Shown piece after piece: positions 3,601-21,900 of a stretch of 33,008 nucleotides of DNA (its first letter is position 1; the number at the start of each line of letters is the position of its first letter). Made by a program: the position numbers and the translations under genes. The notes below the pieces were generated by a model. It was given only the letters and a program-made list of their open reading frames with translations, was not told the DNA's origin and searched no databases. The stretch spans positions 1 through 33,008 of the forward strand of contig JAPPIX010000191.1 in the NCBI GenBank assembly GCA_028820495.1. The letters are read 5' to 3'. This DNA comes from Gammaproteobacteria bacterium. GTDB lineage: Bacteria; Pseudomonadota; Gammaproteobacteria; Pseudomonadales; Azotimanducaceae.

Positions 3601-4553
3601 CAGTCCAAGGAGTCGTCCGCGTTGCCGGTCAGCACCACGTGCTTGGCGTTCACCGTGCCGCCAAAGAACTCGATGCCGTCGTCAAGGTTGTTGTACACCT
3701 GAACGTAGTCCACCTCGGTGGCGTCGCCCACCGCCTGGAAGGCGATGCCGTTCAATTGGTTTTCGGGGTCCACGTTGGCGCCGGCGAAGCGGACGCTGAC
3801 GTAGCGCAGCACGCCGGAGTTGTCGTTGCCGTTGGAGCCGCCGAATTGCCCGGAATTGGCTTCGCCCTCCTTGATGCAGGCATCGGTGCCGCCCGCGGCG
3901 CCCTCCGGGCAATCGTTGATGGGCGCGTAGCCGTTGATGACCAAGCCGCCCCACAGGCCTCGGTCATTGTCCTCCGCCGTGCCGAGCACCTCTTCCTTGG
4001 CCGTGAAGAGGATCGGTTGATCGGCGGTGCCGTCGGCCATCAGCGCGCATCCGCGGTTGATGACCAGGAAGTCGGTTGAACCGCTGCCAACAATGACGCC
4101 ACCCGGCGCGATCTCGAGTTGGCAATCCGGCAGGCTGCCGCCGCTGCTTGGCGCCGCGCCATCCGGTGGCGTGACGCGCGCCGCGCCCCCGGAAATCTCA
4201 AAGATGGCGTCGTTGCCGAGCACCAAGCCGGTCGGGTCGAGGGCGCCGCCCTGCAAGGCCGAAACGTCAATCGTGTTGATGGGCTTGCCCCCAAAGGCTG
4301 AGTCCGCCGTGGTGCCCGAATCCGTAATGGCGGATTCCAAGTGCGCGGGAATCACGGTGGCGACCGTCGAGCCATCCCCAGGTTCGGGTTCCGGCCCGGG
4401 CTCCGGTTCAGGTTCCGGAGCAGGCGGCGGCTGAACCTCAACCTCCACCACGACTGAACCCGGCGAGACATTTTCCGATGAGCCGCCGCAAGCGACCAAC
4501 AGCGCCGCGGCAATGGACAGCACGGCCATCCGGCAAAGATCTCCCACGATCAT
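699..4553 (-). CDS. Large three-repeat beta-rich outer-membrane lipoprotein, probably phosphate-regulated
   Basis: 1284 residues. The N-terminus has a short hydrophobic stretch ending in the lipobox LVAC (Cys22), then a Pro/Glu linker (PEPEPEPGPEPEPG, about residues 45-58). The rest holds three units of about 400 residues, each with the landmarks GLWGGLVINGNAPINDCPEG, KEGEANSG, FAGANVDPENQLNGIAFQ, NNLDDGIEFFGGTVNA, GNADDSLDWTDGW and IEADNREG; the GLWGG motifs fall near residues 200, 600 and 1003. This pattern looks like a secreted parallel beta-helix family that often accompanies TonB-dependent receptors. Its biochemical role is not known to me. Paired Cys in each unit (DCPEG...C and CPxG...CQLSG) suggest disulphides. 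It precedes the TonB receptor and has a PhoB box about 105 nt upstream. ATG at 4553 has AGGA four nt upstream and supplies an Arg before the hydrophobic core; Met9 (4529) is the alternative. Confidence 0.88.
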   Translation of the reverse strand: MIVGDLCRMAVLSIAAALLVACGGSSENVSPGSVVVEVEVQPPPAPEPEPEPGPEPEPGDGSTVATVIPAHLESAITDSGTTADSAFGGKPINTIDVSALQGGALDPTGLVLGNDAIFEISGGAARVTPPDGAAPSSGGSLPDCQLEIAPGGVIVGSGSTDFLVINRGCALMADGTADQPILFTAKEEVLGTAEDNDRGLWGGLVINGYAPINDCPEGAAGGTDACIKEGEANSGQFGGSNGNDNSGVLRYVSVRFAGANVDPENQLNGIAFQAVGDATEVDYVQVYNNLDDGIEFFGGTVNAKHVVLTGNADDSLDWTDGWTGRIQYLYIEQTDSADNAIEADNREGGEGAMPRSNPTIANMSVYGKSDERALRIRRGTGLSLRNSFIDGSERCLRVDGGSRALLGTDLTFEGVSFACAQTHDRDDDGAVKSYMDSALNVSQNGEQVDPVSLSDTFFDNTDFIGAFGAENWAAGWTYSGSVSHASQPDFGCPEGATTSSRMLNGTRVCQLSGTITDDLLLTSNNTYELVGKVVVGGDNEDSADLTVQAGTTIFGGTGVDFLVISRGSKIIANGTRTAPVTLTSQSDLTGGADIATARGLWGGLVINGNAPINDCPEGAAGGTAGCAKEGEANSGLFGGDDPNDSSGVLNYLVVKFAGANVDPENQLNGIAFQGVGSGTKVDYVQVHNNLDDGVEFFGGTVNAKHLVLTGNADDSLDWTDGWQGSIQYLIVDQPESLSADNGIEADNREGDEAATPRSLPRIANMTINGRSGERAIRLRRGTGLKLYNSVVAGSDNCLRVQGDSLNQLGSGITFDGVSFDCGTVVEGDDVAAIQSLLDRSNVSASGRAVAASDLSGDSFFEAADFIGAVENDDEDWTSGWTVGMPDAGVDFGCPAGAAEQDQTIGGKGVCQLSGTYTSDLALTRSRHYVLDGKVVIGGDNQDSAVLDIESGTTIFGDDAEDFLVISRGSQIRARGTKNAPITLTAESDLMGTGNASTDRGLWGGLVINGNAPINDCPEGAEGGTAGCAKEGEANSGLFGGDNPNDSSGMLNYVVVKFAGSNVDPENQLNGIAFQGVGDGTVVDYIEVYNNLDDGIEFFGGTVNASHVVLVGNADDSLDWTDGWTGSIQYLHILQPESLSADNGIEADNREGDETATPISEPWIANMTLAGRSGERAIRLRRGTGLHLYNSMVSGSDNCLRIQGESLNLLGTRIEFSGVGLNCATVNEGDDETVVQTFLDGSANLVEGAGTPTPVSLPARFDSSGSTIVGSDVSNWGAGWTVGVN

Positions 4554-4841: not shown

Positions 4842-5102
4842 ATGGCCACAAATCAGGTGGTGCGCGCTCGGGTTGACGAGCGCTTGAAGGCGGAGGCCAC
4901 CGCGATACTGGCGACCATGGGACTCACGGTATCCGATTTCGTGCGCATCGGCCTGACCAAGGTGGTGAGTGAACAGGGGCTGCCATTTGAAATGCGAGTG
5001 CCTAACCGGCTGACTGCCGAAACCCTTGAGAGGAGCGAACGCGGCGAAGATCTTCATCGGGCTGAAAACGCCAAAGCCCTGTTTGAAGACTCGGGCATTT
5101 GA
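4842..5102 (+). CDS. dinJ: Antitoxin of the RelB/DinJ family
   Basis: 86 residues, the same length as E. coli DinJ. It has the typical ribbon-helix-helix N-terminus (VVRARVDERLKAEATAIL), the hallmark GLTVSDFVRIGLTKV, and a C-terminal LPFEMRVPNRLT segment that in this family wraps the YafQ-type toxin. ATG at 4842 was chosen over longer in-frame starts because MATNQVVRARVDE aligns with the family N-terminus and a purine-rich AGAGAGA lies just upstream. The stop overlaps the ATG of a toxin-like reading frame (5102), the arrangement expected of a dinJ-yafQ operon. That toxin appears truncated, so this antitoxin may be an orphan and could still act as a repressor. Confidence 0.9.
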   Translation: MATNQVVRARVDERLKAEATAILATMGLTVSDFVRIGLTKVVSEQGLPFEMRVPNRLTAETLERSERGEDLHRAENAKALFEDSGI

Positions 5103-5146: not shown

Positions 5147-8100
5147 ATGGTCAGGAACCAAGCGGCAGGTGCGAGACCTGCGTCGGGTTTCATCCATTGG
5201 CGGGCACCGTTGCTCGCCGCGCTGGGATTGCTCGCTGCAACGTTTCCGGCGAGCGAGGGCGCCGCCGATGCGGCCTCTGAAGCGCAGCGCATTTGGCTGT
5301 TTCTGGGTGTTTCCGAAGACTCCGGCCGGGAGGGCTTCCTGCGGGTGGTCAACCACTCGGCTCAAAATGGCGAGGTTCGCATTGAAGCGGCGGACGACGC
5401 CGGGACGTCTGCCGCCCCCGTCACCTTGGCCATCGGGGCCGCGCAGGCGGTCCACCTGAACTCCCGGGACCTGGAGGGCGGCAACGCGGGCAAGGGTCTG
5501 CCCGAAGGCATCGGGCCCGGCCAAGGCGACTGGCGGCTCACCCTGTCGAGCGACTTGGACATCGAGGCGCTCTCCTACGTGCGCACCGCCGACGGGTTCG
5601 TGACCACCATGCACGACACCGCACCGACGATGGACGACGGCTCGCACCGGGTGGCGTTCCTCAACCCCGGCAGCAACCACCGGCAGGAAAGCCACCTTCG
5701 GCTGGTCAACCCGGGCGCGGATGCGGCGAGGGTCCGCATCACCGGAACGGACGATGCCGGGCAGCCCGGCACGGCGGCGGTGACCGCTGAGGTGCCCGCC
5801 GGACAGTCGCGGACGTTCACGGCGGCGGAACTGGAAAGCGGCAACGCCCCCGGCCTCTCCGGCGCGCTGGGCGACGGCGCGGGCAAGTGGCGGCTGCGGG
5901 TGGAGTCGGAGCGCGACATCGTGGCGATGAGCCTGCTGGCCACCCCCACAGGCCACTTGGCCAACCTCTCCGCGCCGCCGCCCGAAGCCGATGCGGGCGG
6001 GGCGCACGTGGCGCCGCTGTTCCTGTCGGCCTCCGACCCCTTGGAACGGCAGGGCTTCCTGCGGGTGGTGAACCGCTCCGACGTAGCGGGCACGGTGCGC
6101 ATCGAGGCGTTCGACCAGTCCGACTTCGCCTACGATCCGGTCACGCTGGCCCTTGATCCCCGCCAGGCCCGGCACTTCAACTCCACGGACCTGGAAATGG
6201 GCAACGCCAACAAGGGGCTTGCCGGCCGCCTCGGGGCGGGGCGCGGCGACTGGCGGCTGGAGCTGACCAGCGACCTGGACATTGAAGCGCTGGCCTACAT
6301 CCGCACCAAGGACGGCTTCGTGACCTCCATGCACGACCTGGCGCCGACGGCGGACGGTCTGCTGCACAAGGTGGCCTTCCTCAACCCCGGCAGCAACGAC
6401 CGCCAGGCCAGCCACCTGCGGCTGGTGAACCGGGGCGCGGCGGAGGCCGAGGCGACCATCGAGGGCATCGACGACGCCGGGCAGTCGCCGGGCGCTTTGG
6501 TGCGGGTCCGGGTGCCGGCGGGCAAGGCGGTGTCCTTGGGCTCCAAGGCGCTTGAGGAAGGCGGCGACGGCTTCGAGGGCGCCTTGGGCAACGGCAAGGG
6601 CAAGTGGCGGCTGTGGGTGGCTTCAGACCAGCCGCTGCTGGTGGCCAGCCTTCTGGACACGCCGACGGGGCACTTGGCGAACCTCTCCACGGCGCCGGGC
6701 CGGGGCGCAGCCAAGCCGTCCAGCGCGGATGCCGAGGCGGAGGCGTTCCGCACCCTGGCCTCGCCCATCGTGCAGTCGAAGTGCGTCACCTGCCACGTCG
6801 AGGGCGGCGCGTCCGGCAACACGCGGCTGGTGTTCGTGACGGACGCCGACGCCGACCATCTGTCGAAGAACCTCAATGCGTTCAGGAGCCTGCTGGAATC
6901 GGTTAACGACGCCACCGGCGACGGCGCGGACTATGTGCTAGGCAAGATCCAAGGGGTGAGCCACGGCGGCGGGGTGCAAGTCGCCGCGGGCACTGATGAA
7001 TTCGACAACATGCGCAGGTTTCTCGAGTTGCTCGGCGGCACTGGCGACCGCGGCCCCCAATCCATCACCGCTAAGAACCTGTTTGAAACAGTCCGCATGG
7101 AATCGCCGCGCCGCACACTCTATCGTGCGGCGATGATCTTCGCGGGGCGGGTTCCGACCGCCGAGGAGCTGGCGCCATTCCCGGGCGGCACAATGAAGCA
7201 GCCCAGGGATACCGTCAGGCGCATGATGACGGGGCCGGAGTTCCATGAATTCCTGATTCGCGGCGCCAATGATCGCCTGTTGACGGACTCGCTGGGCTGG
7301 GAGGACATTCTTGCCGACGGACACACAGGCGTAATCGCCAACAACAACTACTCCCAGTTTTCGGGATACGAGGCCGAGCGCGAACGCCTCCAGGCAGGCG
7401 GGCGATCGGCGGACGGCGGATACTCCGACGAATACTACGAGTGGTTCCATGAAGTTCGCTTCGGCGCACGCCGAGCCCCCTTGGAACTAATTGCCCATGT
7501 CGCGGAGAACGACCTTCCGTACACGGAAATTCTCACCGCCGACTACATCATGGCCAACGCCGCGACGGCAGGTGCGTACAGTGCGCCCGTTGCGTTTGAC
7601 GACCCGGACGACCCGTTCGAGTTTCAGCCAACGCGCATCCGGGGGTACCGGCACGGGGGCATCGCCCTGGACGAGTATCCTCACGCTGGCATTCTCAACA
7701 CCACCAGCTACCTGCGCCGCTACCCGACAACGCCGACCAACCGCAACCGGGCGCGCGCCCGTTGGACCTACCAGCATTTCCTCGGCGTCGATATCCAGAA
7801 CTCAGCACCGACCGTTACGGATGCCGATGCCCTGCTCGACACCCGCAATCCGACGATGCACAACCCGGCCTGCACCATCTGCCACATACCCCTAGACCCG
7901 GCGGCGGGCGCGTTCCAGAACTACACGGAGACAGGGTTTTATCGGGCAACAACATATGGCAAACACACTCTCGACCCTGCTTACGCTTTCCCCTCTCACG
8001 CCGCCAAGGGCCATCCGATAGAGCCCAATCGTCCCAACGATCGGACAACCATCGTCTCTCGTGCCGTTCCCATGACCAAGGACAGTTATGTCTTTCTAAG

Positions 8101-9517
8101 GTCGAGGGATTTCAACCGCGATCAGGATCTCGACACGATCGCAACCATTGTCGTGGGAGACGTCTCACTACGCGATCACGACACGGGTGAGCGGTACGAA
8201 GTCGATCTAGGGCGAGCCGACAGCAATGTCCGCTTTCTTGAGGAAACAGGCGAAACGGTAGTGTACATGCGGACCAACAACTACGCCCGCGTGCCGATCG
8301 ACGTTCCGGCTGATGCGCGGTACGACATCGTCGCCGAGGTTTGGGCGGAGGACACAGGGGAGACGGGTGAATTCGCGGTAACCGCAGGCCTTTTCCGGGA
8401 AGGCGATACTTGGTATCGCGACATGAGGGAGCCGGGATTCGAAGGCAATGTCGCGCCCGATGCGGATGCCAGCCTGCAATGGCTCGCTCAAAGGATGGCC
8501 GAAGACCCGCGGTTCGCCGAAGGCGCCGTCAAGTTCTGGTGGCCCACCATTATGGGCAGCGACATCACCCTACCGCCAGCTTCCGGCGATCCGGAATTCG
8601 AGGCGAGGCTGCTCACCGCATCGGCCGAGGCTGCCGAAGTGGAGCGTTTGGCGCGAAAGTTCCAATCGGGGTTCCATGCGGGTGACCGGCCATACAATCT
8701 CAAGGATCTGTTGGCCGCGATGGTGCTGTCCCCGTGGTTTCGCGCGGAACGAAACCTGAGCGATGACGCGTTGCGCGTGGCGGCGCTTCGCACCGCCGGC
8801 GCGAAACGACTGCTGACGCCGGAAGAGCTGGACCGCAAGACGGGGGCGCTGACGGGCTTCAAATGGCGGCGCTGGCTTAGCAGGAACTGTCCTTTGCTCG
8901 ACAGTGAGGTCAGGACTGCCCTGACCGACGACTACGCATTGCTTTACGGGGGCATTGACTCGGAAACCAATTTGATTCGCAGCCGCGACGTGACCGCCAT
9001 CATGGCGGCTGTTGGAAAGGCGCACGCAATACGGTCGAGTTGCCCCATCGTGCTGCGGGAGTTCTACCTGCTGCCGGAAAAGAGCAGGCGCCTGTTCGAC
9101 GGAATCGACATCGACACCGACCCCGGAACCGCAGACGGTGAATTGGCTATCAGGCGCAAGCTCGTTGAACTGCATTTCAGGTTTTTTGGAATCGAAGTGG
9201 GCCCGGACTCGGAGGACGTTGACACGGCGTTCGCCCTGTTCGCGGAAACGCTTGCGCGCAAGCAACGCGACGAGTCCGCAGGCACGGCGTTTCGAGACGG
9301 CAACCGGTGCGACACGGCATCTGACATGCTGCTGCTAGAGGGCATCGTTGACCCGCCAGTCATCGTTGAAGGGGACGGGTACTTGGTGGAGGAGTACGTG
9401 CGCAACGATCCCGATGGGGTCCTGGACAAGACATACGAAGATCCGCATCACTTGGCGAGGACGTGGGTTGCGGTTCTGGCGTACATGATGATGGATTACC
9501 GGTACCTCCACCTCTGA
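5147..9517 (+). CDS. Large exported haem c protein with four beta-repeat domains and DUF1549/DUF1588-like regions
   Basis: 1456 residues from ATG 5147. A signal peptide (hydrophobic core LLAALGLLAATFPA) is followed by two copies of a two-part module (about residues 46-275 and 276-525). Markers of the module are GFLRVVN, DWRLTLSSDLDIEALSYVRT, AFLNPGSN.RQ.SHLRLVN and TPTGHLANLS. Next is a ~90-residue mono-haem domain: CVTCH at 546-550, SHGGGVQV, and a conserved Met in DNMRRFLELLGG that could be the distal ligand. The C-terminal half has LYRAAMIFAGRVPTAEEL, RNRARARWTYQHFLGVDI, a second CxxCH (CTICH, 909-913), a beta-sandwich insert before GDTWYRDM, and a final MMMDYRYLHL. These C-terminal parts resemble planctomycete-type DUF1549/DUF1588 proteins, which pair with DUF1501 partners, as here 2 nt downstream. 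It probably sits in the periplasm or at the envelope; the substrate is unknown. An upstream in-frame start (5102 or TTG 5099) belongs to the toxin remnant. Confidence 0.8.
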   Translation: MVRNQAAGARPASGFIHWRAPLLAALGLLAATFPASEGAADAASEAQRIWLFLGVSEDSGREGFLRVVNHSAQNGEVRIEAADDAGTSAAPVTLAIGAAQAVHLNSRDLEGGNAGKGLPEGIGPGQGDWRLTLSSDLDIEALSYVRTADGFVTTMHDTAPTMDDGSHRVAFLNPGSNHRQESHLRLVNPGADAARVRITGTDDAGQPGTAAVTAEVPAGQSRTFTAAELESGNAPGLSGALGDGAGKWRLRVESERDIVAMSLLATPTGHLANLSAPPPEADAGGAHVAPLFLSASDPLERQGFLRVVNRSDVAGTVRIEAFDQSDFAYDPVTLALDPRQARHFNSTDLEMGNANKGLAGRLGAGRGDWRLELTSDLDIEALAYIRTKDGFVTSMHDLAPTADGLLHKVAFLNPGSNDRQASHLRLVNRGAAEAEATIEGIDDAGQSPGALVRVRVPAGKAVSLGSKALEEGGDGFEGALGNGKGKWRLWVASDQPLLVASLLDTPTGHLANLSTAPGRGAAKPSSADAEAEAFRTLASPIVQSKCVTCHVEGGASGNTRLVFVTDADADHLSKNLNAFRSLLESVNDATGDGADYVLGKIQGVSHGGGVQVAAGTDEFDNMRRFLELLGGTGDRGPQSITAKNLFETVRMESPRRTLYRAAMIFAGRVPTAEELAPFPGGTMKQPRDTVRRMMTGPEFHEFLIRGANDRLLTDSLGWEDILADGHTGVIANNNYSQFSGYEAERERLQAGGRSADGGYSDEYYEWFHEVRFGARRAPLELIAHVAENDLPYTEILTADYIMANAATAGAYSAPVAFDDPDDPFEFQPTRIRGYRHGGIALDEYPHAGILNTTSYLRRYPTTPTNRNRARARWTYQHFLGVDIQNSAPTVTDADALLDTRNPTMHNPACTICHIPLDPAAGAFQNYTETGFYRATTYGKHTLDPAYAFPSHAAKGHPIEPNRPNDRTTIVSRAVPMTKDSYVFLRSRDFNRDQDLDTIATIVVGDVSLRDHDTGERYEVDLGRADSNVRFLEETGETVVYMRTNNYARVPIDVPADARYDIVAEVWAEDTGETGEFAVTAGLFREGDTWYRDMREPGFEGNVAPDADASLQWLAQRMAEDPRFAEGAVKFWWPTIMGSDITLPPASGDPEFEARLLTASAEAAEVERLARKFQSGFHAGDRPYNLKDLLAAMVLSPWFRAERNLSDDALRVAALRTAGAKRLLTPEELDRKTGALTGFKWRRWLSRNCPLLDSEVRTALTDDYALLYGGIDSETNLIRSRDVTAIMAAVGKAHAIRSSCPIVLREFYLLPEKSRRLFDGIDIDTDPGTADGELAIRRKLVELHFRFFGIEVGPDSEDVDTAFALFAETLARKQRDESAGTAFRDGNRCDTASDMLLLEGIVDPPVIVEGDGYLVEEYVRNDPDGVLDKTYEDPHHLARTWVAVLAYMMMDYRYLHL

Positions 9518-9519
9518 CC

Positions 9520-10767
9520 ATGAAAAGACGCCGCTTCATTCAAGCATCCCTAGCAGTTGGCGCCTCAAGCGTCGCAGCCATGCGTGTTCCAGTTTCGCTC
9601 GCGGCCGGAACTCCCGAGTACCGAGGCAAGCTGCTGGTCTCCGTGCAGGCGAGCGGCGGCTGGGACCCCACGTGCTTCTGCGATCCAAAGACCAACACGC
9701 CGGGCGAACCGATCATCAACCACTGGGCGGAGAACGACGAAGTCCATTGGGCAGGCAATCTCCCCTACGCGCCATTCGCCGACAACCAAGCGTTTTTCGA
9801 GAAGTACCACGGCCGCATGCTGGTGATCAATGGCATTGACATGCAAACGAACTCGCACGACATCGGGAACGTCCACAACTGGACCGGACGGAGTTCAGAG
9901 TCCTTTCCGACGCTCTCAGCTTTGCATGCCGCGCACCACGCGCCGAATGCAGGGCTGCCCTGCCTGAGCTTCGGCGCCTATACCCGCGGGGGCGAAATCC
10001 TGTCGGTTGTGTCCCTGGGCAGCGGCGGCGCCTCGGCACGCAGGCAACTCGCGGCCATAGTCGAACCAGCGCAAAATGGGTATCTGCACGAACGGGACTG
10101 GGAGGCCATTCAGCACCGTCACCGTGAAACCATGGCCCGCTTGAGGGCTGGGAATGATCTGGTTCCGGCTGCGCGTCGTACCATTGCGGCCTACGCTTCC
10201 GCGTTTGACGGGGGTGGGGGGCTTGCGGTCTTTGCGGCCAAGCTCAGGGAGTTGGGAACCTCTGACCCTTGGCACGGCGCAATCGCCGCTTTCGCCAGCG
10301 GAGTCTCAGCCAGCGCTGACTTGGCCGGCGGGGACTTTGATACGCATGCCGACAACGACGGGCGGCAGTCCCAAGCGCTGTCGTGGCTCACTGGAAAGGT
10401 GGACGCACTCTGGGAGTTGGCGGAAGAACATGGCTTGGCAGACCGCCTGGTCATGGTCATCGGCTCCGAATTCAGTCGAACCAACTACTACAACGCGGAT
10501 GACGGGAAGGATCATTGGCCCATTGGCAGTCTCATCGTCATGGAGAAAAACCAGCCTTGGACCCACCGGGTGGTGAACGTCAGCGACGAACTGCATTTTG
10601 CCCGCACCGTCCATCCCCGAACCTTGGAGCCCGATGACCGCAATGGGACGATCATCTATCCCAAACATGTGCATAAGGCACTCCGCCGCTACCTTGATTT
10701 GGAGAGATCGGCTGGTGCTAGGCTGTATCCATTCCGCGAAGTCGAGGACTTGGCATTCTTCGGCTGA
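9520..10767 (+). CDS. Tat-exported DUF1501 family protein (first copy)
   Basis: 415 residues. The N-terminus carries a twin-arginine signal (KRRRFIQASLAVGAS). The body has family landmarks: ASGGWDPTCFCDPK near residue 45, GGDFDTHADNDGRQ, and GSEFSRTNYYNADDGKDHWP, the equivalent of the 'EFGRTP...GRDHWP' signature of DUF1501. The fold is related to the alkaline-phosphatase/sulfatase superfamily, but no activity is established. Export by Tat implies folding, perhaps with a metal, before secretion. The gene begins 2 nt after its haem-protein partner and shares no obvious Shine-Dalgarno of its own, which suggests translational coupling. A close paralogue of identical length lies at 13900-15147. 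Confidence 0.9.
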   Translation: MKRRRFIQASLAVGASSVAAMRVPVSLAAGTPEYRGKLLVSVQASGGWDPTCFCDPKTNTPGEPIINHWAENDEVHWAGNLPYAPFADNQAFFEKYHGRMLVINGIDMQTNSHDIGNVHNWTGRSSESFPTLSALHAAHHAPNAGLPCLSFGAYTRGGEILSVVSLGSGGASARRQLAAIVEPAQNGYLHERDWEAIQHRHRETMARLRAGNDLVPAARRTIAAYASAFDGGGGLAVFAAKLRELGTSDPWHGAIAAFASGVSASADLAGGDFDTHADNDGRQSQALSWLTGKVDALWELAEEHGLADRLVMVIGSEFSRTNYYNADDGKDHWPIGSLIVMEKNQPWTHRVVNVSDELHFARTVHPRTLEPDDRNGTIIYPKHVHKALRRYLDLERSAGARLYPFREVEDLAFFG

Positions 10768-10813
10768 GTCCCATCAGTCATCTTAGGGCATTGAGGTCTT
10801 CGACCAATCTCCA

Positions 10814-10836
10814 ACAGTTCCCCGACAAGGAACTGT
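10814..10836 (+). terminator. Hairpin after the first DUF1501 gene, possible weak terminator
   Basis: ACAGTTCC / 7-nt loop / GGAACTGT forms an 8-bp perfect stem, followed only by TGTT rather than a U-run. It lies in the 136-bp gap between the first gene pair and the next haem-protein gene, so it could separate two transcription units. The gap also holds a 6-bp palindrome TTCCAA-N5-TTGGAA (about 10864-10880) and the AGAGG ribosome-binding site of the next gene; no clear promoter was seen. Confidence 0.3.
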
Positions 10837-10903
10837 GTTAGCATTTCCCTGAATTGCTTAGGGTTTCCAACCACTTTGGAAGCTGGATCATAGAGGCAGC
10901 GCG

Positions 10904-13894
10904 ATGCCGAAGCTTTGGGCGTTGGCCCTACTCCCTATCGTCGGCCTTGCGGCCGAGGGTGGGGCTGCTGACGATGAGCGCGCCAGAATCGCTTACGAAC
11001 GGCAGCGGGCGCTGGGCCATGCCCAGATGCCGGATACGATGTACGCCTCCAATCCATCGGAGCCCTCGGCCCCGCACGCCTATTCGCCAACGCATGGGGC
11101 GGACGGCGCGTGGAAGGCCTACGCGCCTGCTGAGCGGGCGGTTTCCAAGGCGGCGGACGCACCGGCGGAAGACCTCTACCGCGATCTAATTTCGCCCATC
11201 GTGCAGTCCAAGTGCGTCAATTGCCATGTCGAAGGCGGCGTTTCCGGCCAGACGCGCCTGGTGTTCGCCCCGTCGAGCGACCCGGACCACGAATCGGTCA
11301 ACTTGCGCCGTTTTGACGGCTTTCTAGCCACGGTGGAGAACGGCGAGCAGTTGATCCTGAGCAAGATTCGCGGCGACAGCCACGGCGGCGGCGTGCAGGT
11401 CGAAGCCAACAGCGAGGAGTTTGCCCAGATGGAGCAGTTCCTCGATGCGCTGGGCGGCGAAACCGCGGTTGCATCGCTCACGCCGGAGAACCTGTTCGAC
11501 ACCGTGCGGCCGGTGCCGCAGCGCACGACCTTGCGCCGGGCGGCGCTGATCTTGGCAGGACGCATTCCCACCGAGGCGGAGTACGCGTCGATTAAGGAGA
11601 TTGGCATACGCCAAGCCATCCGCAATCTGATGACGGGGCCGGGATTTCACTCCTTCTTGATTCGTTCGGCCAACGATCGCCTGCTGACCGATCGGGAAAA
11701 CTACGTGCTTTCCTCCGACAGTGACGGGCCACTCGTTGAATACGTCAATGAATGGGTGCGCCGCTGCGAGCAATCAGGGGGCGAGACCTACGGCGAGGCA
11801 TTCGACCTGTGGTGGCGGGGCGTGCAATACGGTGCCCGCCGGGCGCCATTGGAACTGATCGCGCACGTCGTCCAGAACGACCTGCCCTACACGGAGATTC
11901 TGACCGCCGACTACATCATGGCGAACCCTTGGACGGCGCCGGCCTATGGCAGCGCCACGGCGTTCGACAACCCGGACGACGTCCACGAGTTCAAGCCGAG
12001 CAAATACGTCAGCCACTATCTTCGCGATGGATCGCGGGAGACCGAATACTCCGATGGTTGTGGCCGGCGCATCGTTGACCCGGGCGACCTGCATCAAGAG
12101 TTCCCCCACGCTGGCATCCTGAACACCAAGGCGTTTCTGCAGCGCTACCCAACGACGACAACCAACCGCAACCGGGCTCGGGCGCGCTGGACCTACTACC
12201 ACTTCCTGGGCATCGACATCGAGAAGCTGGCCGCCCGCACCATCAACCCGGACGCCTTGGCCGACACTGACAATCCCACGCTCAAGAACCCCGCCTGCAC
12301 GGCCTGCCACGACACGCTCGATCCGGTGGCGGGCTCCTTTCAGAACTACGCCGCGGACGGCGATTACCGGGCAAATTTTGGAGGTGAGGATTCACTGGAT
12401 GACTTCTACAAGAACAACCGCCCTGGAGGCACCGACCACATTGTTGAAGCCGATTCGTGGGAGGAGCGGGAGAGGCTGGAAGCGACTGGTTTCTTTGCAG
12501 CTGGCGAAAACGCCGTCGGCTTGGCGGCCGTCAGGAACTGGTCGGTAACGGGGAGTAACGTCGACAACATCACCATTCGCGATGAAAACCGCCGATTGAT
12601 TCTGCGAGCCCCGGCAATAAAGCTGTTTCAGGGGTCCGGTTGTGGGTTGGATGGTTGGCCCTACGGCTGGCACCTGTCCACCTCATGCGTCTTGGATGTT
12701 CATGTCCGAATTCCCCGCGACGGCGACTACACTTTGCACCTTGATGCATGGGAAGGGTACAGCAACGTTTACACGCCAGCGGCAGTAAGAGTCTGGCTGA
12801 ACCAGACCGACATCTACCGTCAGGGCGACACTTGGTACCGCGGCATGCTCCCCGCCGGCTTTGGCAGCAGGGAAGCCCCCGACGCCGACAACAGCCTGCA
12901 ATGGTTGGCGCAACGGGTCGCCGCCGACCCCCGCTTCGCTCGCGCGGCGGTCAAGTTCTGGTGGCCCGCCATCATGGGCACCGAAGTCGCCTCACCGCCG
13001 GAAGACCCGAACGATGCAGACTTCGAGGCGCAACGCGTCGCCGCCGAAGCCCAGGCAGTGGAAGTTGAACAACTCGCGAGACGCTTTCAGTACGGCTTCG
13101 GGACCCCCGGACGACAGCCCTACGTCTTGAAGGACCTCTTGGTCGATATCACCATGTCCAAATGGTTCCGTGCGGGATCGTCCACCGACCAAGACCCCAC
13201 GCGAACGGTTGCGCTGCGCCACGCTGGCGGCGGGCGGTTGCTGACCCCGGAGGAACTAGCGGCCAAGACGCTCGCCCTGACCGGCTTCCAATGGGGGCGC
13301 GGAAAACCCCCGATGCAGGAATACGACTACGACTATCGTGAGCCGCTGACCAGGGAACGGCATGAGTTGAACACCTCGTACGCCATCCTATACGGGGGCA
13401 TCGACTCCCACGGCGTCACCGAACGCGCCCGGGATTTGACGTCGGTCATGCTCGGCGTGGCGAAGCGGCATGCAGCGGAGGTGAGTTGCCCGATCGTGCT
13501 GCGCGAGTTCCACCTGCTTCTGGATGCGGACCGCAAGCTCTTCAGCGGGCTGGACATCACTGCCACTCCCGAACAGTCCGGCGGCGAGCAAGCGATACGT
13601 CAAACGCTCGCCACGCTCTACGACAGGCTGTTGGGGGTGCGCACCAGCCCCCGTTCCTCGGAAATCACCGCTGCCTACAACTTCCTGGAGGAGGTTTGGA
13701 ACCGCAAGCGCGAAACCGAGGCGAGCCCCTTGCTGGACGCCATCGAATGTTGGACCTGGGGCGATGACTACTTCCTGGCGGATATCCCGGAGGGAAACCA
13801 CGACACCAACCCCGACGATCCCGACCACATCGGCAAAACCTGGGTAGTCGTGGTGGCAGCGTTACTGATGGACTATCGATATCTCCACCTTTGA
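10904..13894 (+). CDS. Exported dihaem-motif protein with DUF1549/DUF1588-like regions (paralogue without the beta repeats)
   Basis: 996 residues. ATG 10904 is preceded by AGAGG at 7-nt spacing and opens a signal peptide (MPKLWALALLPIVGLAAEGG). A spacer leads to the same haem domain as in the upstream paralogue: SPIVQSKCVNCHVEGG (CxxCH at 104-108), DSHGGGVQV and AQMEQFLDALGG. The downstream part parallels the upstream protein through TLRRAALILAGRIPTEAE, NDLPYTEILTADYIMAN, RNRARARWTYYHFLGIDI and a second haem motif CTACH (465-469). It then has a beta-sandwich insert before GDTWYRGM, FWWPAIMG, and the ending LLMDYRYLHL. Unlike its paralogue it lacks the four N-terminal beta-repeat domains. It is 5 nt from the next DUF1501 gene, so partner exchange or duplication of the whole pair is likely. 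The function is unknown; redox or processing chemistry outside the cytoplasm is inferred from the haems. Confidence 0.82.
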   Translation: MPKLWALALLPIVGLAAEGGAADDERARIAYERQRALGHAQMPDTMYASNPSEPSAPHAYSPTHGADGAWKAYAPAERAVSKAADAPAEDLYRDLISPIVQSKCVNCHVEGGVSGQTRLVFAPSSDPDHESVNLRRFDGFLATVENGEQLILSKIRGDSHGGGVQVEANSEEFAQMEQFLDALGGETAVASLTPENLFDTVRPVPQRTTLRRAALILAGRIPTEAEYASIKEIGIRQAIRNLMTGPGFHSFLIRSANDRLLTDRENYVLSSDSDGPLVEYVNEWVRRCEQSGGETYGEAFDLWWRGVQYGARRAPLELIAHVVQNDLPYTEILTADYIMANPWTAPAYGSATAFDNPDDVHEFKPSKYVSHYLRDGSRETEYSDGCGRRIVDPGDLHQEFPHAGILNTKAFLQRYPTTTTNRNRARARWTYYHFLGIDIEKLAARTINPDALADTDNPTLKNPACTACHDTLDPVAGSFQNYAADGDYRANFGGEDSLDDFYKNNRPGGTDHIVEADSWEERERLEATGFFAAGENAVGLAAVRNWSVTGSNVDNITIRDENRRLILRAPAIKLFQGSGCGLDGWPYGWHLSTSCVLDVHVRIPRDGDYTLHLDAWEGYSNVYTPAAVRVWLNQTDIYRQGDTWYRGMLPAGFGSREAPDADNSLQWLAQRVAADPRFARAAVKFWWPAIMGTEVASPPEDPNDADFEAQRVAAEAQAVEVEQLARRFQYGFGTPGRQPYVLKDLLVDITMSKWFRAGSSTDQDPTRTVALRHAGGGRLLTPEELAAKTLALTGFQWGRGKPPMQEYDYDYREPLTRERHELNTSYAILYGGIDSHGVTERARDLTSVMLGVAKRHAAEVSCPIVLREFHLLLDADRKLFSGLDITATPEQSGGEQAIRQTLATLYDRLLGVRTSPRSSEITAAYNFLEEVWNRKRETEASPLLDAIECWTWGDDYFLADIPEGNHDTNPDDPDHIGKTWVVVVAALLMDYRYLHL

Positions 13895-13899
13895 CGATC

Positions 13900-15147
13900 A
13901 TGGGAACCAATAGACGCACGTTTCTGAAGAGTCTCTGCGCTGGCGGCGCAGCGGCCGGGCTGCGCCTGCCGATGGCCCATGCCGAGGATTACCAAGGCAA
14001 GGTGCTCGTGGTCATTCAGGCGGACGGCGGCTGGGACCCCACCAGCTTCTGCGACCCCAAGCCCAATGTGCCGGGGGAGCTTATAATCAATCATTGGGCC
14101 GAAAACGACGAGGTCCGCCAAGCCGGCAACATCCCCTACGCGCCCTTTGCGGACAACGAGCGCTTCTTCGAGAAGTACTGGGACCGCATGCTGGTCATAA
14201 ACGGGGTTGACGCCCAGACCAACTCCCATTCGGTGGGCGTGGTGCACAACTTCAGCGGACGCAACGCCGAAGGGTACCCCTCCCTCACCGCCCTCATGGC
14301 CGGCCACTCCGCCCCCGCTCTGCCCGCCACCTACCTTAGCTTCGGCGGGTTCTCCTATCCCGCCGGGATTGTCCGCCCCACCCGGCTTGGCAGCACCGAG
14401 CGCATCCAAGACATCGCCAACCCAGCCGATGCCGACCACTACGGCAGCCGCTTCCTCGGCGAAGCCGATTGGAGCGCGCTTGAGAAGCACATCTCAGCAA
14501 CCGCGGAGCGCCTCGCCGCCGCCCCCAACCTGCTCGAGGCCGACCGGCGGCGCCTGGAGGCCTACCGAGCCGCGCACCGGGCGGAGGGGTTGAGCGCGTT
14601 CTCCGATGCGCTGGCATCGGCCGATTTTGCCGATGGATTGCGGCGCCACGCCCAGCAGTCCATTCTTGCCTTCCGCACCGGGGTTGCCGTGAGCGCCGAC
14701 CTGTGGATGGGCGGCTTCGACACCCACGACGATCACGACGACCAATCCGCCCCCTTGTTGAGCGAACTCACGGACGGCGTTGACTTCCTGTGGGATTTCG
14801 CAGAGGAGCAGGGCGTTGCGGACCGTCTCCTTGTCGTAATCGGCTCGGATTTCGGACGCACCAACTACTACAACGCCAGCGACGGCAAGGATCACTGGCC
14901 CATCGGCAGCTTCATCATCATGGAGAAGAACCAACCTTGGACCAATCGGGCCGTTGGCGCTACCAACCCCCTCCACTTCGCGCAACGGGTGAACCCCTCG
15001 ACCCTGGAACCCGACCACCGTCGCGGCAGCATCATTCATCCCAAGCATGTGCACAAAGCGCTGCGGCGCCATTTGGGTGTTGAGGAATCCGCCGGTTCGC
15101 AACGCTATCCGCTCAACAACACCGAAGACTTCGCCTTCTTCGGTTAG
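13900..15147 (+). CDS. Tat-exported DUF1501 family protein (second copy)
   Basis: 415 residues, the same length as the copy at 9520-10767 and similar along its whole length. The twin-arginine signal is NRRTFLKSLCAGGAAAG. Shared landmarks are ADGGWDPTSFCDPKPN, IINHWAENDEVRQAGN, MGGFDTHDDHDDQ, GSDFGRTNYYNASDGKDHWP and the ending EDFAFFG. ATG 13900 was chosen because it places the RR motif at residues 5-6; a TTG at 13891 overlapping the previous stop is possible. It is preceded by its haem-protein partner (5-nt gap) and followed after 10 nt by the haem-LRR gene, so 10904-17221 reads as a three-gene operon. Confidence 0.9.
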   Translation: MGTNRRTFLKSLCAGGAAAGLRLPMAHAEDYQGKVLVVIQADGGWDPTSFCDPKPNVPGELIINHWAENDEVRQAGNIPYAPFADNERFFEKYWDRMLVINGVDAQTNSHSVGVVHNFSGRNAEGYPSLTALMAGHSAPALPATYLSFGGFSYPAGIVRPTRLGSTERIQDIANPADADHYGSRFLGEADWSALEKHISATAERLAAAPNLLEADRRRLEAYRAAHRAEGLSAFSDALASADFADGLRRHAQQSILAFRTGVAVSADLWMGGFDTHDDHDDQSAPLLSELTDGVDFLWDFAEEQGVADRLLVVIGSDFGRTNYYNASDGKDHWPIGSFIIMEKNQPWTNRAVGATNPLHFAQRVNPSTLEPDHRRGSIIHPKHVHKALRRHLGVEESAGSQRYPLNNTEDFAFFG

Positions 15148-15157
15148 GCTCCTCAGA

Positions 15158-17221
15158 ATGCCTCGCCTTCCCCATGCCAGCCGACCTTCGTGGGCGGCAC
15201 TCGTGTTGTTGGCTTGCGGTTCGTTGAGCTCCGCTCCGGCTGCCCATGCGCAAACGGCGAGCGAAGTGTTTGAGGAGCACATCTCGCCGTTGGTCCAGCG
15301 CCAATGCATCAACTGCCATGTGGAAGGCGGCCAATCCGGCGACACCCGCCTAGTGTTCCTGCCGTCAACCGACTCGGCTCACCTGGTCCACAACGAGCAG
15401 CAGTTCCGCGCCTTCGTCTCGCAGGTCGATGACGGCACCAAGCGGATACTGGACAAGATCTCCGGACGCATATCCCACGGCGGCGGCACCCAAGTGCCTG
15501 AAGATAGCGACGAATACGGCCACATGGAGCGGTTTCTGGAACTGCTGAGCGGCGGGAGCCAATCCACTGAACTGATTCCGGACCTCAACCTTAAACGCGC
15601 CATTGCGGAGGCGCTCGGAAAGTCGGACGGCGGCGCCATCACCAAGGCGGAACTGGCGACATTGACTGAATTGGGTGCATCCCACCGGTCCATTGCCGAC
15701 CTGCGCGGTCTGGAATTCGCTGTCGAGTTGAAGAAACTCAATCTGTACTACAACCAGGTCACAGACTTGGACGCGATAGCCAAGTTGGTGAACCTTGAGG
15801 AATTGAACCTGAGTTGGAACAACGCTGCAGACATTTCCCCATTGTCGAGTTTGGTCAAATTGAAAACACTGGGGCTTTCCGCAAACGGGATAGAAGACAT
15901 TTCACCACTGTCGAACCTAACCAGTTTGTCTGATTTGCGTCTGGACCTGAATTACAATCTCAAGGATATCTCACCTCTGGAAAATCTGGTTGGCTTGTCA
16001 GTCCTAGATTTGTCAATCATCGGCATCGCGGACATTTCTCCCTTGGCAGGCCTCCGAGCCTTACAGCTCTTGGACTTGGACGCCAACAGGCGCCTAAGGG
16101 ACTTGGCGCCGCTTGAAAACCTCGCCAACCTGAGGACGTTGGTTGCTTCTCGGATCGGATTGAAGGAAATCTCGCTCTTGTCGAAGCTCACCGAGCTGGC
16201 CCACATTGACCTGCATGAGAACGCCATCGAAGACATCTCACCGTTATCGAAGCTGACCAAGCTGCGTGATCTCAATTTGTCGGGAAACAAGATTGAAGAC
16301 ATCTCGCCCTTGAGGGAAGCTGAAGAACTGATTTGGTTGCACGCGAATAACAACTACATCAATGATCTTTCGCCACTCGCCAACCTGACGAAACTGTCTC
16401 TCTTAGAATTGCAGCAAAACAGCATCGAGGAGGTTTCGCCCCTGAGGAATCTCACCGCTCTATCCGTATTGAGACTCCGAAGCAACAACATCCGTGGCGT
16501 CTCGCCGCTAGCCGATCTCACTGAACTCAGCTTCTTGGATGTCGGCAGCAATCTCATCGCCGACATCCAACCTCTGTCGAACCTAGGTGGCCTCCATTGG
16601 TTGAGTTTGGACGACAACGAAATTCGAGACATAGGGGTATTAGCGGAGTTGAGGGGCCTCAATGAATTGGATTTGAGCCGCAATCCGATTTCCAACCTCT
16701 CCGCTTTGGCCGACCTGCCCTACCTCCAACGCCTATATCTTGGCTACGCCGATATTCAGCACATCAATGCGCTGGCAAACCTCCGCGGTCTGGATAAACT
16801 GTCCCTGGACGGCAACGACATCCGGGACATTTCGGCCCTGTCAAACCTGACCAAGCTGACCGAGTTGTACTTGCGGCGCAACGCCATCTACGATGTTTCC
16901 GCGCTGTCCGGCTTGCGTGAGTTGACGAGGCTGTCGCTAACCGGCGGCAATTCCGTTAATGACCTTTCCCCCCTCGCCCGGCTGACCCAATTGCAGGGGC
17001 TGGGGCTGGGCGGCAACCAAGTCTCCGACGTCGCGCCGCTGTCCCGCATGGCGAACCTGTTGTGGTTGAACCTTGGCGAGAACGACGTTATGGACATCGC
17101 GCCCATCAGCCACTTGGAAGCACTGGAATGGCTGAATCTCCAACGCAACCCCTTGGACGCCGACGCCTTTGAGATGCACATTCCGAGAATGCGGGAACGA
17201 GGCGTGTACGTTCATTATTGA
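15158..17221 (+). CDS. Exported haem c domain fused to an internalin-type leucine-rich-repeat array
   Basis: 687 residues from ATG 15158. The signal peptide (WAALVLLACGSLSSAPAAHA) ends near residue 32. The haem domain follows at about 37-130: SPLVQRQCINCHVEGGQSG (CxxCH at 50-54), ISHGGGTQV and a possible ligand Met in YGHMERFLELLSGG. From about residue 150 to the end there are more than twenty 22-residue repeats of the form LxxLxxLxLxxNxIxDISPL, the bacterial internalin/SDS22-like class. The haem domain is the same one found in the two large upstream proteins, so the LRR part could act as a scaffold that docks a redox domain onto a partner. The central repeats are visibly less GC-rich than the flanking genes. 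The fusion is seen directly; the scaffold role is inference. Confidence 0.85.
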   Translation: MPRLPHASRPSWAALVLLACGSLSSAPAAHAQTASEVFEEHISPLVQRQCINCHVEGGQSGDTRLVFLPSTDSAHLVHNEQQFRAFVSQVDDGTKRILDKISGRISHGGGTQVPEDSDEYGHMERFLELLSGGSQSTELIPDLNLKRAIAEALGKSDGGAITKAELATLTELGASHRSIADLRGLEFAVELKKLNLYYNQVTDLDAIAKLVNLEELNLSWNNAADISPLSSLVKLKTLGLSANGIEDISPLSNLTSLSDLRLDLNYNLKDISPLENLVGLSVLDLSIIGIADISPLAGLRALQLLDLDANRRLRDLAPLENLANLRTLVASRIGLKEISLLSKLTELAHIDLHENAIEDISPLSKLTKLRDLNLSGNKIEDISPLREAEELIWLHANNNYINDLSPLANLTKLSLLELQQNSIEEVSPLRNLTALSVLRLRSNNIRGVSPLADLTELSFLDVGSNLIADIQPLSNLGGLHWLSLDDNEIRDIGVLAELRGLNELDLSRNPISNLSALADLPYLQRLYLGYADIQHINALANLRGLDKLSLDGNDIRDISALSNLTKLTELYLRRNAIYDVSALSGLRELTRLSLTGGNSVNDLSPLARLTQLQGLGLGGNQVSDVAPLSRMANLLWLNLGENDVMDIAPISHLEALEWLNLQRNPLDADAFEMHIPRMRERGVYVHY

Positions 17222-17246: not shown

Positions 17247-19385
17247 TCACAGTTCCCGGCGCAAGGACACGGCAAGCAAATGGTTGCCGTAGCGGGGGCT
17301 GGCGCGCCCGAAGGCGAGCACGTTGCGGATGGCGTCCTGCGCCACGCCGTCGATGGCCCAATCCGCCGCACGGTAGCGTTCGTAGTAGTAGCGGAGTTCC
17401 ACCTTGGACTTCCGGCGCCAAGCGGTTTGCAGCCGAACGTCCAGCGATCGATGGCGGGAAATCAAGCTCGGAAAACTCGCCGTTGCCGACTCGAACGTCG
17501 TCGCATAGTCGCCATCGCCATCGGAATGGGCGTACGCCACCTGCAGGTCGAGTGACGGGTGCGGAAAACCCCTGGCCGCGAGGCGGGCCCCAGCCGTCCT
17601 GACCCGATCATCAGTGGCGTAGGACCAATCCCGTGCCGGAAAGGCAACGCTTCCCGCCGTGGTTGCCTTGCGCCACTGCACGCCGAAGAAGCCGGAGAGC
17701 GACACCCGGCTGCCGACCGCATGGGCGACATCCACCAGCCAGCCGCTGGAGCGGTCGCGCTTAAGCCCCAGCGACGAGTCGGGATAGCTGAACCTGCGAA
17801 GGTTGGCGTCGAGGCCAATGCTCAGCCCGGTGCTTGGTGAGTCGAATTGCAAGCCGCCCCGCCACTCCCGTTCTTGGCGCGCAGCTTGGTAGTAGCGCCG
17901 GGTGAGCGGATTGTTTGCGCTATTGGCCATGAACTTAGACGCATCGCGGTTGCCGCGAGCGTGACGGAGGCTCAAACGCCACGCCCCACCAAGCTCGCGG
18001 GACACCTCCAGCCAACCCCGGCGCTCATCGTTGCCCGCGACTTCGAGATTTGACCGTTGATGTTCCCCATTGCGAAAGCCCGCCGCAATCCGCATCCCGC
18101 CCGGCAACCCATAGCGCAGGTTGAACTCGGTGTTCGCGCGCCGGTAGTCGTAGCCGATGGCCTCGTGCGGGGCGGTTGCGAACAGGTCTCCCAAAACCGG
18201 CGTAAGCGTGATGGCCCGCCGCCGGTCTGCGCGTTCAACAACGCCGTGGGCGATGCTTAGCCGCAGCCCCCTTGCGGGGCGGCTGACCAGGTTGACCGCC
18301 GCGCTGAGCGATTCCCGGTTCGCGCCCAAATCGGGCTCGCCGATGGATGCCAAGTTGAGATTGGCATTGTTTGTATAGGGCAAAAAGGGCTCAGTCTGCT
18401 TCGCCTCGGTGCGGGCCAAGCTGACGTTGAGGCGGGTGGTGCGATGCAGGCGCAGGCGGGAGACGAATGACAGGGTGCTGGCTCTATTGCCTGGCGCCAC
18501 GGCACTGCGGCCCCGCGCCGCTGAACCAAGGTATGGATTGTCCCAAACCAGTTCCCGCTCACCGTTGTTAAATCGCCGGTGGGCGTAGGAAACGGCCGCG
18601 GAAAGCCTCTGATTCACAAAGCGCAAGCGGGTGACCGCACCCTCTATCCGGTGGTCGATGGGTTGCGGCAGCGCCGTGGCTTGATAGAGGAAGTCGCGGC
18701 TGGTTTCGCGGATGCCGCGCTTTCGTTCCTGGAAGTAGCCCGCTTCAAGCGTCAACGACGGCAACGGCTTGAACCAGGCGCCCAACTCCGAGCGGCGGCG
18801 TTTGGACGACAGATCAACGGATCGGCCACTCTCGGCCAGTTGCGTCATGCCCGCCGTGCTGAAGGCCGGCGTCCAAGTGTCCGGCAGCCGCGGCCCTTCC
18901 AACAGGGCGAAAGGCGAGCGCCCGTCATCCGATTGGTTGCGCGGGGTTTCCCGGTACCGGGCGCGAAAGCCGTAGCGCTGGCGCCTTTCCAGGCGCAACG
19001 CCGCATCCCGCGAGACCAGCCCGAGATTGCGGCCGGTCAGTTCCATGAACAAACCCGATCCCGTGGTCAGCCGATATTCGGCGTTCAGATCGAGGTGGGC
19101 GCCGGATCGATCGATCCCGTTGTCGCGACCGAAGCGCGCCTCCCCTCCCGTTGATTCCATGGCGCCGGCGGTGAAGGTTCCGGTTTGGGCGGCGGCCCGG
19201 TCGAATTCGCACAGCCTGCAAGACCAGCGCCGGGTATCCGCCTTGGCGTAGTTGGTCGCGAACTCGGCGGCCCCGGCCCCAGGAACCGCAACGAGCATGG
19301 ACAGAGCCGCCAAAACCCGCCACGGAGTTTGCCCCGCCCACACGGCCCGCGCCTCAACCAAGCGGCGGCAACCCTTTCCCGTCAT
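17247..19385 (-). CDS. MtrB/PioB-family outer-membrane beta-barrel of a porin-cytochrome conduit
   Basis: 712 residues from ATG 19385, close to Shewanella MtrB in length. A signal peptide (LAALSMLVAVPGAGAA) is followed by the N-terminal CxxC (CRLC, residues 56-59) characteristic of the MtrB/PioB family. The rest is rich in alternating amphipathic strands with many Arg/Tyr, and the last strand ends in Leu (AVSLRREL). In this family the barrel sheathes a decahaem cytochrome and lets electrons cross the outer membrane. The start is fixed by an ATGA overlap with the decahaem gene stop (19382-19385), implying translational coupling. A much longer upstream in-frame reading exists but lies entirely within the decahaem gene. 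No MtrC/OmcA-like surface cytochrome is adjacent. Confidence 0.88.
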   Translation of the reverse strand: MTGKGCRRLVEARAVWAGQTPWRVLAALSMLVAVPGAGAAEFATNYAKADTRRWSCRLCEFDRAAAQTGTFTAGAMESTGGEARFGRDNGIDRSGAHLDLNAEYRLTTGSGLFMELTGRNLGLVSRDAALRLERRQRYGFRARYRETPRNQSDDGRSPFALLEGPRLPDTWTPAFSTAGMTQLAESGRSVDLSSKRRRSELGAWFKPLPSLTLEAGYFQERKRGIRETSRDFLYQATALPQPIDHRIEGAVTRLRFVNQRLSAAVSYAHRRFNNGERELVWDNPYLGSAARGRSAVAPGNRASTLSFVSRLRLHRTTRLNVSLARTEAKQTEPFLPYTNNANLNLASIGEPDLGANRESLSAAVNLVSRPARGLRLSIAHGVVERADRRRAITLTPVLGDLFATAPHEAIGYDYRRANTEFNLRYGLPGGMRIAAGFRNGEHQRSNLEVAGNDERRGWLEVSRELGGAWRLSLRHARGNRDASKFMANSANNPLTRRYYQAARQEREWRGGLQFDSPSTGLSIGLDANLRRFSYPDSSLGLKRDRSSGWLVDVAHAVGSRVSLSGFFGVQWRKATTAGSVAFPARDWSYATDDRVRTAGARLAARGFPHPSLDLQVAYAHSDGDGDYATTFESATASFPSLISRHRSLDVRLQTAWRRKSKVELRYYYERYRAADWAIDGVAQDAIRNVLAFGRASPRYGNHLLAVSLRREL

Positions 19386-21697: not shown

Positions 21698-21825
21698 AGC
21701 AATTCTCATTTTGTCGGAGCGGGCATCTTGCCCTCGAAATGAACCGGGAAATCCATCGAGGGCGGGACGCCCTCGCTCCGGGGAGCTTCGCCTGACGCAA
21801 CGAAAAAGCCAAAATGAGAATTGCT
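21698..21825. mobile_element. 128-bp MITE-like element with 16-bp terminal inverted repeats and 11-bp target duplication
   Basis: The left end is AGCAATTCTCATTTTG (21698-21713) and the right end is its exact reverse complement (21810-21825). The element is bracketed immediately by identical 11-bp direct repeats GCAAACCGATC (21687-21697 and 21826-21836), as left by transposase-driven insertion. It encodes nothing and carries a REP pair inside. It ends 75 bp before mazE. The parent transposase is not in the window. Confidence 0.8.
21716..21779. repeat. REP pair (REPIN), copy 2
   Basis: A degenerate forward REP (21716-21737, GGAG followed by CGGGCA-TCT-TGCCCTCG) and a perfect reverse REP (21756-21779) lie inside the MITE-like element. 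Here the GGAG heads point outwards, opposite to copies 1 and 3. Confidence 0.75.
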
Positions 21826-21841
21826 GCAAACCGATCCAAGC

Positions 21842-21867: not shown

Positions 21868-21900
21868 AAGGTATCTACATCGGTTTCTACGGAGTGGGTC

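Follow-up and report, generated by a model that had tools for sequence, protein, structure and literature searches.

Exported mono-haem-domain proteins beside MtrAB genes in a gammaproteobacterial contig: a possible MtrAB variant without MtrC

What is the function of five consecutive plus-strand genes, three of which share the same haem domain? The genes, P0001 to P0005, occupy positions 5147–17221 of a 33,008-nucleotide stretch of gammaproteobacterial DNA (contig JAPPIX010000191.1; the whole stretch is hereafter the window), and a mono-haem domain of ~95 residues occurs in P0001, P0003 and P0005, twice in a protein paired with a DUF1501 protein and once fused to a leucine-rich repeat (LRR) array. 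An earlier note on this DNA had described this layout, which our analysis bears out, and had read it as two duplicated redox pairs brought into one complex by an LRR scaffold. We favour another reading. Genes for an MtrAB conduit, which the note had not mentioned, lie immediately downstream, and we see about an even chance that the locus is an MtrAB variant in which exported mono-haem-domain proteins, including the haem–DUF1588/DUF1501 pair and the LRR protein, serve as outer partners without MtrC.

The start codons of the five genes were chosen, those of P0002, P0004 and P0005 being ATG. P0001 (5147–9517), judged by eye from its N-terminus to be exported, comprises a beta-type repeat region of ~485 residues (~5282–6736; secondary structure by eye), the haem domain (6746–7048) and a DUF1588 core with a second CxxCH (7871–7885, residue 909). 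P0003 (10904–13894), exported by the same judgement of its N-terminus, is without such a repeat region; its haem domain lies at 11177–11458, with HGGG at 11381–11392, and its second CxxCH at 12296–12310 (residue 465). DUF1588 (PF07627, cut-off 27 bits) was indeed found in both haem partners, at 29.9 bits in P0001 and 30.6 bits in P0003, with DUF1592 under its Pfam cut-off in both; the DUF1549 region also proposed for them came up only in P0003, at 14.7 bits vs a cut-off of 29.8, and is dropped. P0002 (9520–10767), which is divergent, and P0004 (13900–15147) are DUF1501 proteins (PF07394, 41.9 and 65.6 bits vs a cut-off of 27) of 415 residues each, as described. Their twin-arginine translocation (Tat) export stands for P0004 (TIGR01409 19.4 vs 16.7), but P0002 has the twin-arginine motif with a TIGR01409 score under the cut-off. 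P0005 (15158–17221; P0014 when taken from ATG 15158) is also exported as judged by eye from its N-terminus, and carries the haem domain at 15263–15556 and the LRR array at 15578–17218, which is far above the Pfam cut-off and has units of the LRR_4/internalin kind.

Immediately downstream of P0005, and convergent with it on the minus strand, are the genes for MtrB, MtrA and a di-haem cytochrome. The MtrB/PioB outer-membrane barrel (17247–19385, 712 residues from ATG 19385) is above both cut-offs (PF11854 315 bits vs 23; TIGR03509 287.8 vs 240), and its start overlaps the stop codon of the MtrA-type decahaem cytochrome (19382–20383, 333 residues, 10 CxxCH). The di-haem cytochrome (20393–21037, 214 residues from ATG 21037, in an open frame that starts further upstream) has two CxxCH and matches PF13442 and PF00034 above cut-off; ‘c4-like’ is our own label for it.

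The linkage between conduit and haem domain was surveyed in 150 genomes drawn from the bacterial family (haem domain at E ≤ 1e-5, DUF1501 at E ≤ 1e-30). The haem domain gave 106 matches in 40 genomes and DUF1501 gave 50 matches in 35; both were present in 34 genomes, the haem domain only in 6 and DUF1501 only in 1. Strong MtrB matches (E < 1e-30) numbered 43 in 42 genomes, and were found in 22 of the 40 haem-domain genomes vs 20 of the 110 others (Fisher p 2e-5, without correction for relatedness). In the haem-domain genomes, a haem domain is no more than 5 kb away from 13 of the 23 MtrB loci; in 20,000 runs of random placement the mean count was 0.23 and the highest was 3. The arrangement is convergent in the window, L190, L026 and L027; the MtrAB genes are divergent from haem–DUF1588–DUF1501 genes in L182–L187; and a beta-repeat–haem gene precedes mtrA in the same orientation in L188, with 63 bp to the first ATG, and also in L032. 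The existence of several gene arrangements suggests that the association has been maintained and is not just a single order frozen in place.

MtrC-type decahaem cytochromes, searched for with PF22113, are mostly missing where the haem domain occurs; clear matches (E < 1e-20) were found in 13 of the 150 genomes overall. Among the strong-MtrB genomes, clear MtrC was found in 10 of the 20 that lack the haem domain, adjoining MtrB on the same contig in 9 of these, vs 1 of the 22 that have it (G297; Fisher p 0.001, without correction for relatedness). At the cut-off of PF22113 itself the contrast was 12/20 vs 4/22 (G297, G340, G325 and G413; p 0.01). In the genome of the window (91% complete) PF22113 gave 0 matches at E ≤ 0.001, and among window frames of at least 100 codons MtrA alone has more than two CxxCH. 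Furthermore, an MtrB tree of 33 rows (unrooted, by a quick method, and with L192 and L193 nearly identical), built from the 23 haem-genome loci and 10 of the 20 loci from MtrB genomes without the haem domain, splits with a Shimodaira–Hasegawa-like approximate likelihood ratio test (SH-aLRT) value of 100. The larger side consists of 22 rows from haem-domain genomes only; the other has 11, namely the 10 from genomes without the domain and G297.

All 12 aligned haem domains have the CxxCH and the HGGG His, and the same His is present in all 61 aligned partner proteins; a small number of other relatives have retained the His and not the full GGG. The spaced Met pointed out earlier is present in all three window domains, but in only 6 of the 12 aligned. 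As the HGGG His is invariant and the Met is not, ligation is probably His/His (CxxCH and the HGGG His) and does not involve the Met. M648 of P0003, invariant in 61/61 partner proteins, is a candidate ligand for the second CxxCH haem. Only below cut-off did Pfam cytochrome models match the haem domain; PSCyt1 was absent from the Pfam matches of 12 haem domains at E ≤ 1, and no solved structure was convincingly related by sequence (best E 0.29).

The haem domain is a module fused to diverse cargos. In the family survey, 48 of the 106 haem domains lie ≤4.5 kb upstream of a DUF1501 gene on the same strand, including two stand-alone beta-repeat–haem frames (L026 and L027), and 8, all of the LRR type and in 7 genomes, lie directly downstream. 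We examined 20 proteins covering 21 of the 50 matches away from DUF1501: seven terminate with the haem domain, and Pfam assigned to the other 13 an FGE-sulfatase (1), beta-lactamase-family (4), beta-propeller (4, three with a MauG/CCP match below cut-off), FG-GAP and LRR (1), ankyrin (1) or below-cut-off TSP3 (1) cargo, or no clear cargo (1). The genome of the window also encodes P0012 (contig C330), with beta repeats, haem domain, LRR and further sequence, and P0013 (contig C311), with beta repeats, haem domain and FG-GAP. In a comparison of 26 haem proteins, at least three His together with acidic residues were found in the loop that precedes the conserved His in 7 of the 10 proteins that terminate with the haem domain, and never more than one His in the other 16. 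Four of these seven adjoin MtrAB (L032, L188, L189 and L190), and the composition of the loops hints at metal contact.

How far the pair depends on the conduit can be judged from its wider distribution. A genome_contigs search using this genome's three DUF1501 proteins (best 80 of 93 relatives) gave 79 loci, and a DUF1588-type partner was found in 73 of them, directly upstream on the same strand in 72 and directly downstream in L077. In three of the six loci without a partner (L097, L098 and L101), the contig opens with DUF1501. By record title, the pair extends to Acidobacteria, Latescibacterota and Myxococcales/Polyangia, in line with the earlier statement that DUF1501 is commonly paired with DUF-bearing cytochrome proteins. 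The existence of the pair is not new: PMC5615132 (accessible part) places PSCyt2 and PSCyt3 genes usually beside uncharacterised families and assigns them no function. In Halieaceae, a gene of another kind, encoding a haem domain at the C-terminus, stands directly downstream of the pair in L072 and L083, and one gene further downstream in L074. The genome of the window has a third haem–DUF1588/DUF1501 pair, L021 (contig C219, 4967–10035, minus strand), the first gene of which is split by a frame break; contig C219 also holds MtrB–MtrA and a c4-like frame, with MtrB ~7 kb from its DUF1501, and the C219 paralogue has a CBM60 match above cut-off. A different pairing, of DUF1800 with DUF1501, is found in L024 (contig C154, 3101–6343, minus strand).

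Structure prediction gives some indication of what the pair may be. The P0004 model has a predicted local distance difference test score (pLDDT) of 87.1, and Foldseek returned 159 PDB matches at E ≤ 0.001 (best E 6e-7), in which sulfatases lead among the matches listed, with template-modelling (TM) scores of only ~0.3–0.4. The fold of DUF1501 is thus predicted to be of the sulfatase/alkaline-phosphatase type. D46, T107, H110, D274, H276, D317 and H332 are conserved in 72–74 of 74 rows, with one gap at D46; these seven residues may fit an alkaline-phosphatase-type site, with roles assigned by analogy. DUF1501 is a probable metal-dependent hydrolase-fold enzyme. For P0003, the model (pLDDT 84.7, predicted TM score 0.83) shows a predicted beta-rich insertion; its global fold had no PDB match at E ≤ 0.001, and many of the weak matches are small beta-sandwich proteins, which would concern the insertion. 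L162 (4316–8155, minus strand) encodes beta repeats, the haem domain and two FGE-sulfatase stretches, a curious composition given the sulfatase-type fold predicted for DUF1501.

The LRR–haem gene is confined to one clade of the pair. It stands directly behind DUF1501 in 7 of the 79 loci (L026, L027, L028, L029, L030, L033 and L095), and 74 of the 79 have at least 700 bases downstream; in the family survey it was found behind the pair at 8 loci in 7 of the 150 genomes (window counted), largely the same genomes. In the partner tree a branch with an SH-aLRT of 97 separates all eight LRR–haem rows from the rest; in the DUF1501 tree these loci belong to a set of nine rows (97), the ninth being L079, on a long branch. 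This grouping makes a single acquisition of the gene, followed by its retention, probable, and its recurrence directly behind the pair, which the earlier note had suggested checking, makes a functional association likely. The association of the LRR–haem gene with the pair thus agrees with the idea of a single system, but P0012 is an LRR–haem protein without the pair in the same genome, and nothing supports the proposed role of the LRR protein as a scaffold ordering redox subunits into one complex. An LRR gene with the same type of C-terminal end and no haem domain is present in L032, and one of a different look in L044. Compared with L026, the haem domain has a nonsynonymous to synonymous substitution ratio (dN/dS) of 0.13 and the LRR part one of 0.26, which places both under constraint. 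The LRR part (15578–17218) has a dS of 0.91 in the same comparison, about twice that of its neighbours (0.33–0.45), which may reflect repeat turnover or inflation by repeat misalignment. A search with P0014 across 293 genomes of the order gave 17 with a match, mostly in LRR-only stretches, and this count was set aside; G105 and G255 have matches to the haem region.

Are the two window pairs duplicates of each other, as had been proposed? P0001 and P0002 form long, unplaced branches in the partner and DUF1501 trees. L026 and L027, the nearest relatives, have instead of P0001/P0002 a stand-alone beta-repeat–haem frame of 629 and 639 codons, respectively, stop to stop, which ends just past the haem domain, and the beta-repeat and haem part of P0001 is 86% identical to the L026 frame. 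By blastn and tblastn, a segment of ~3.8 kb (7012–10830, plus strand), comprising the core of P0001 and P0002, is in the window and missing at that place in L026 and L027; insertion in the window and deletion in the relatives both fit. The trees and this comparison rule out a recent tandem duplication of the pair.

Taken together, these data can be placed in a working model. The decahaem MtrA inside the MtrB barrel would take electrons through the outer membrane, the di-haem cytochrome would act as their carrier in the periplasm, and the exported mono-haem-domain proteins would stand in for the extracellular decahaem MtrC. The beta-repeat–haem protein, often with His/Asp-rich, metal-binding-like loops, would be one outer partner; the DUF1588/DUF1501 pair would be an enzyme exchanging electrons via the conduit; and the haem–LRR protein of one clade would be a binding variant, probably for a surface, host or polymer ligand. 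Contact with MtrAB, the surface location, electron flow and its direction, the substrate and the export of the Sec-type proteins are the parts of this model that we infer.

Among known systems, the MtrCAB, MtoAB, PioAB and DmsEF conduits share with the locus an MtrB-family barrel above cut-off and an adjacent decahaem MtrA. DmsEF, an MtrAB pair serving extracellular dimethyl sulfoxide respiration, is, by analogy, the closest working parallel to the proposed mechanism. In contrast to MtrCAB, no MtrC was found, and the genes linked to the conduit are those for mono-haem-domain proteins, the DUF1588/DUF1501 pair and an LRR protein. According to the accessible part of PMC8805035, which names DmsEF, MtrAB is a modular conserved core with varying outer partners, including systems without MtrC, and the partners treated there are cytochromes of the MtrC kind. 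The PSCyt/DUF1588–DUF1592 proteins of the Planctomycetes–Verrucomicrobia–Chlamydiae (PVC) phyla resemble the locus in PF07627 above cut-off, an adjoining DUF1501 and the CBM60 of the C219 paralogue, and differ in that the proteins here have another N-terminal haem domain (no PSCyt1), some beta repeats, and the linkage to MtrAB and LRR. The haem domain aligns to residues 38–145 of the model of RoxC, a relative of rubber oxygenases, that is, to its N-terminal part, and a substantial number of RoxC sequences have an N-terminal domain bearing a third haem motif (PMC10837239, accessible part). Membership of RoxC was rejected, as the match covers only the haem domain at 26.7 bits vs a cut-off of 900 (NF051462); the propeller and MauG/CCP-like proteins of L165, L167, L168 and L180 may be closer, with CCP below cut-off or absent. 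P0005 is like internalin LRR proteins in its LRR_4/internalin-kind units and differs in its N-terminal haem domain; at 330 bits vs a cut-off of 1600 (NF033189) it is not an internalin A. The literature covered, in part only and including PMC10654088, describes no link of MtrAB with DUF1501 or DUF1588 and no LRR–cytochrome fusion.

Several observations weigh against an MtrAB variant. In the window, the haem-domain genes and the MtrAB genes run in opposite directions and need not be co-expressed. In addition, 10 of the 23 MtrB loci are >5 kb from any haem domain; in G359 the nearest haem domain is >1.2 Mb away. No strong MtrB match was found in 18 of the 40 haem-domain genomes, some of which are incomplete; 50 of the 106 haem domains are not beside DUF1501, and only 3 of the 20 proteins examined away from it adjoin MtrAB (L169, L175 and L176). 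MtrA, MtrB and the di-haem gene were found together in the flanks of 10 of the 79 loci, and neither MtrA nor MtrB was seen in the other 69, within flanks of ≤10 kb, many of them shorter; loci with the pair from Myxococcota and Halieaceae are among those 69, and the pair is therefore not dependent on MtrAB in general. The weak PF22113 matches above cut-off in G340, G325 and G413 are not near MtrB, and the absence of PF22113 matches may leave room for an unrecognised multihaem partner. Why an LRR cargo would need electrons is not evident. Finally, the genomes are related, hence the counts are not independent.

The 69 loci, Myxococcota included, are what would be expected if the pair worked on its own as an exported enzyme system like that of the planctomycete cytochromes, possibly with a polymer as substrate, MtrAB being a separate respiratory module that happens to be nearby and the LRR protein a substrate-binding accessory. 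A polymer substrate would also suit the CBM60 of the C219 paralogue and the beta-rich insertion of P0003 with its weak beta-sandwich matches; in addition, as far as the accessible part of PMC5615132 goes, PSCyt2 and PSCyt3 genes usually adjoin families of unknown function, and some PSCyt genes have carbohydrate-binding modules. The presence of haem genes ≤5 kb from 13 of 23 MtrB loci in several arrangements, the separate grouping of these MtrBs and the rarity of MtrC are harder to reconcile with such independence, which we consider rather unlikely. A bolder version of the MtrAB variant treats the mono-haem domain as an interchangeable plug: the lineage would have lost MtrC and wired a whole exported protein set to MtrAB, and the pair, LRR, esterase-like, FGE-like, peroxidase-like, FG-GAP and ankyrin proteins would form an electrically addressed surface platform. 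Both the plug and the platform seem to us distinctly doubtful. The very diverse cargos, some without an evident redox role (LRR, FG-GAP), together with the terminal position of the haem domain in stand-alone beta-repeat proteins, would suit a domain that mainly docks or sorts exported proteins at the outer membrane, possibly via MtrAB; a pure dock would have no need of the conserved CxxCH and HGGG-type His, and we regard this as improbable. As for two duplicated redox pairs in one complex organised by an LRR scaffold, the conservation of the LRR–haem gene beside the pair in one clade speaks in its favour, but the pairs are not recent duplicates, scaffolding is without evidence, P0012 combines LRR and haem without a pair while the L032 LRR gene is without haem, and many other cargos carry the haem domain as well; we consider this reading highly improbable.

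If the locus is an MtrAB variant, the modularity of MtrAB would extend from multihaem partners to mono-haem-domain proteins fused to enzymes or binding domains. The MtrAB linkage and the mostly missing MtrC would offer a concrete redox context for the common DUF1588/DUF1501 pairs, at least in this family. The record titles of isolates CAR3, IRC1, COS1 and RHO3 resemble those of sponge metagenomes, which may be their origin. LRR, ankyrin and FG-GAP proteins are reported to be common in sponge metagenomes.

Other genes were noted around this and related loci. Directly behind mtrAB in L189 is a gene (9642–13259, plus strand) for a beta-propeller and di-haem MauG/CCP-like protein, with CCP below cut-off; proteins similar to it carry the haem domain in L165, L167, L168 and L180 and may be RoxC-like. 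On the minus strand of the window, 699–4553 encodes a 1284-residue lipoprotein-like protein with three tandem units of ~380 residues (by eye), most of which is also found upstream of the haem genes in L026. A RelB-family antitoxin (4842–5102, plus strand; PF04221, 76 bits) lies just upstream of P0001, and a PemK/MazF-type toxin (21711–22502, plus strand; 89 bits) beyond the MtrAB genes.

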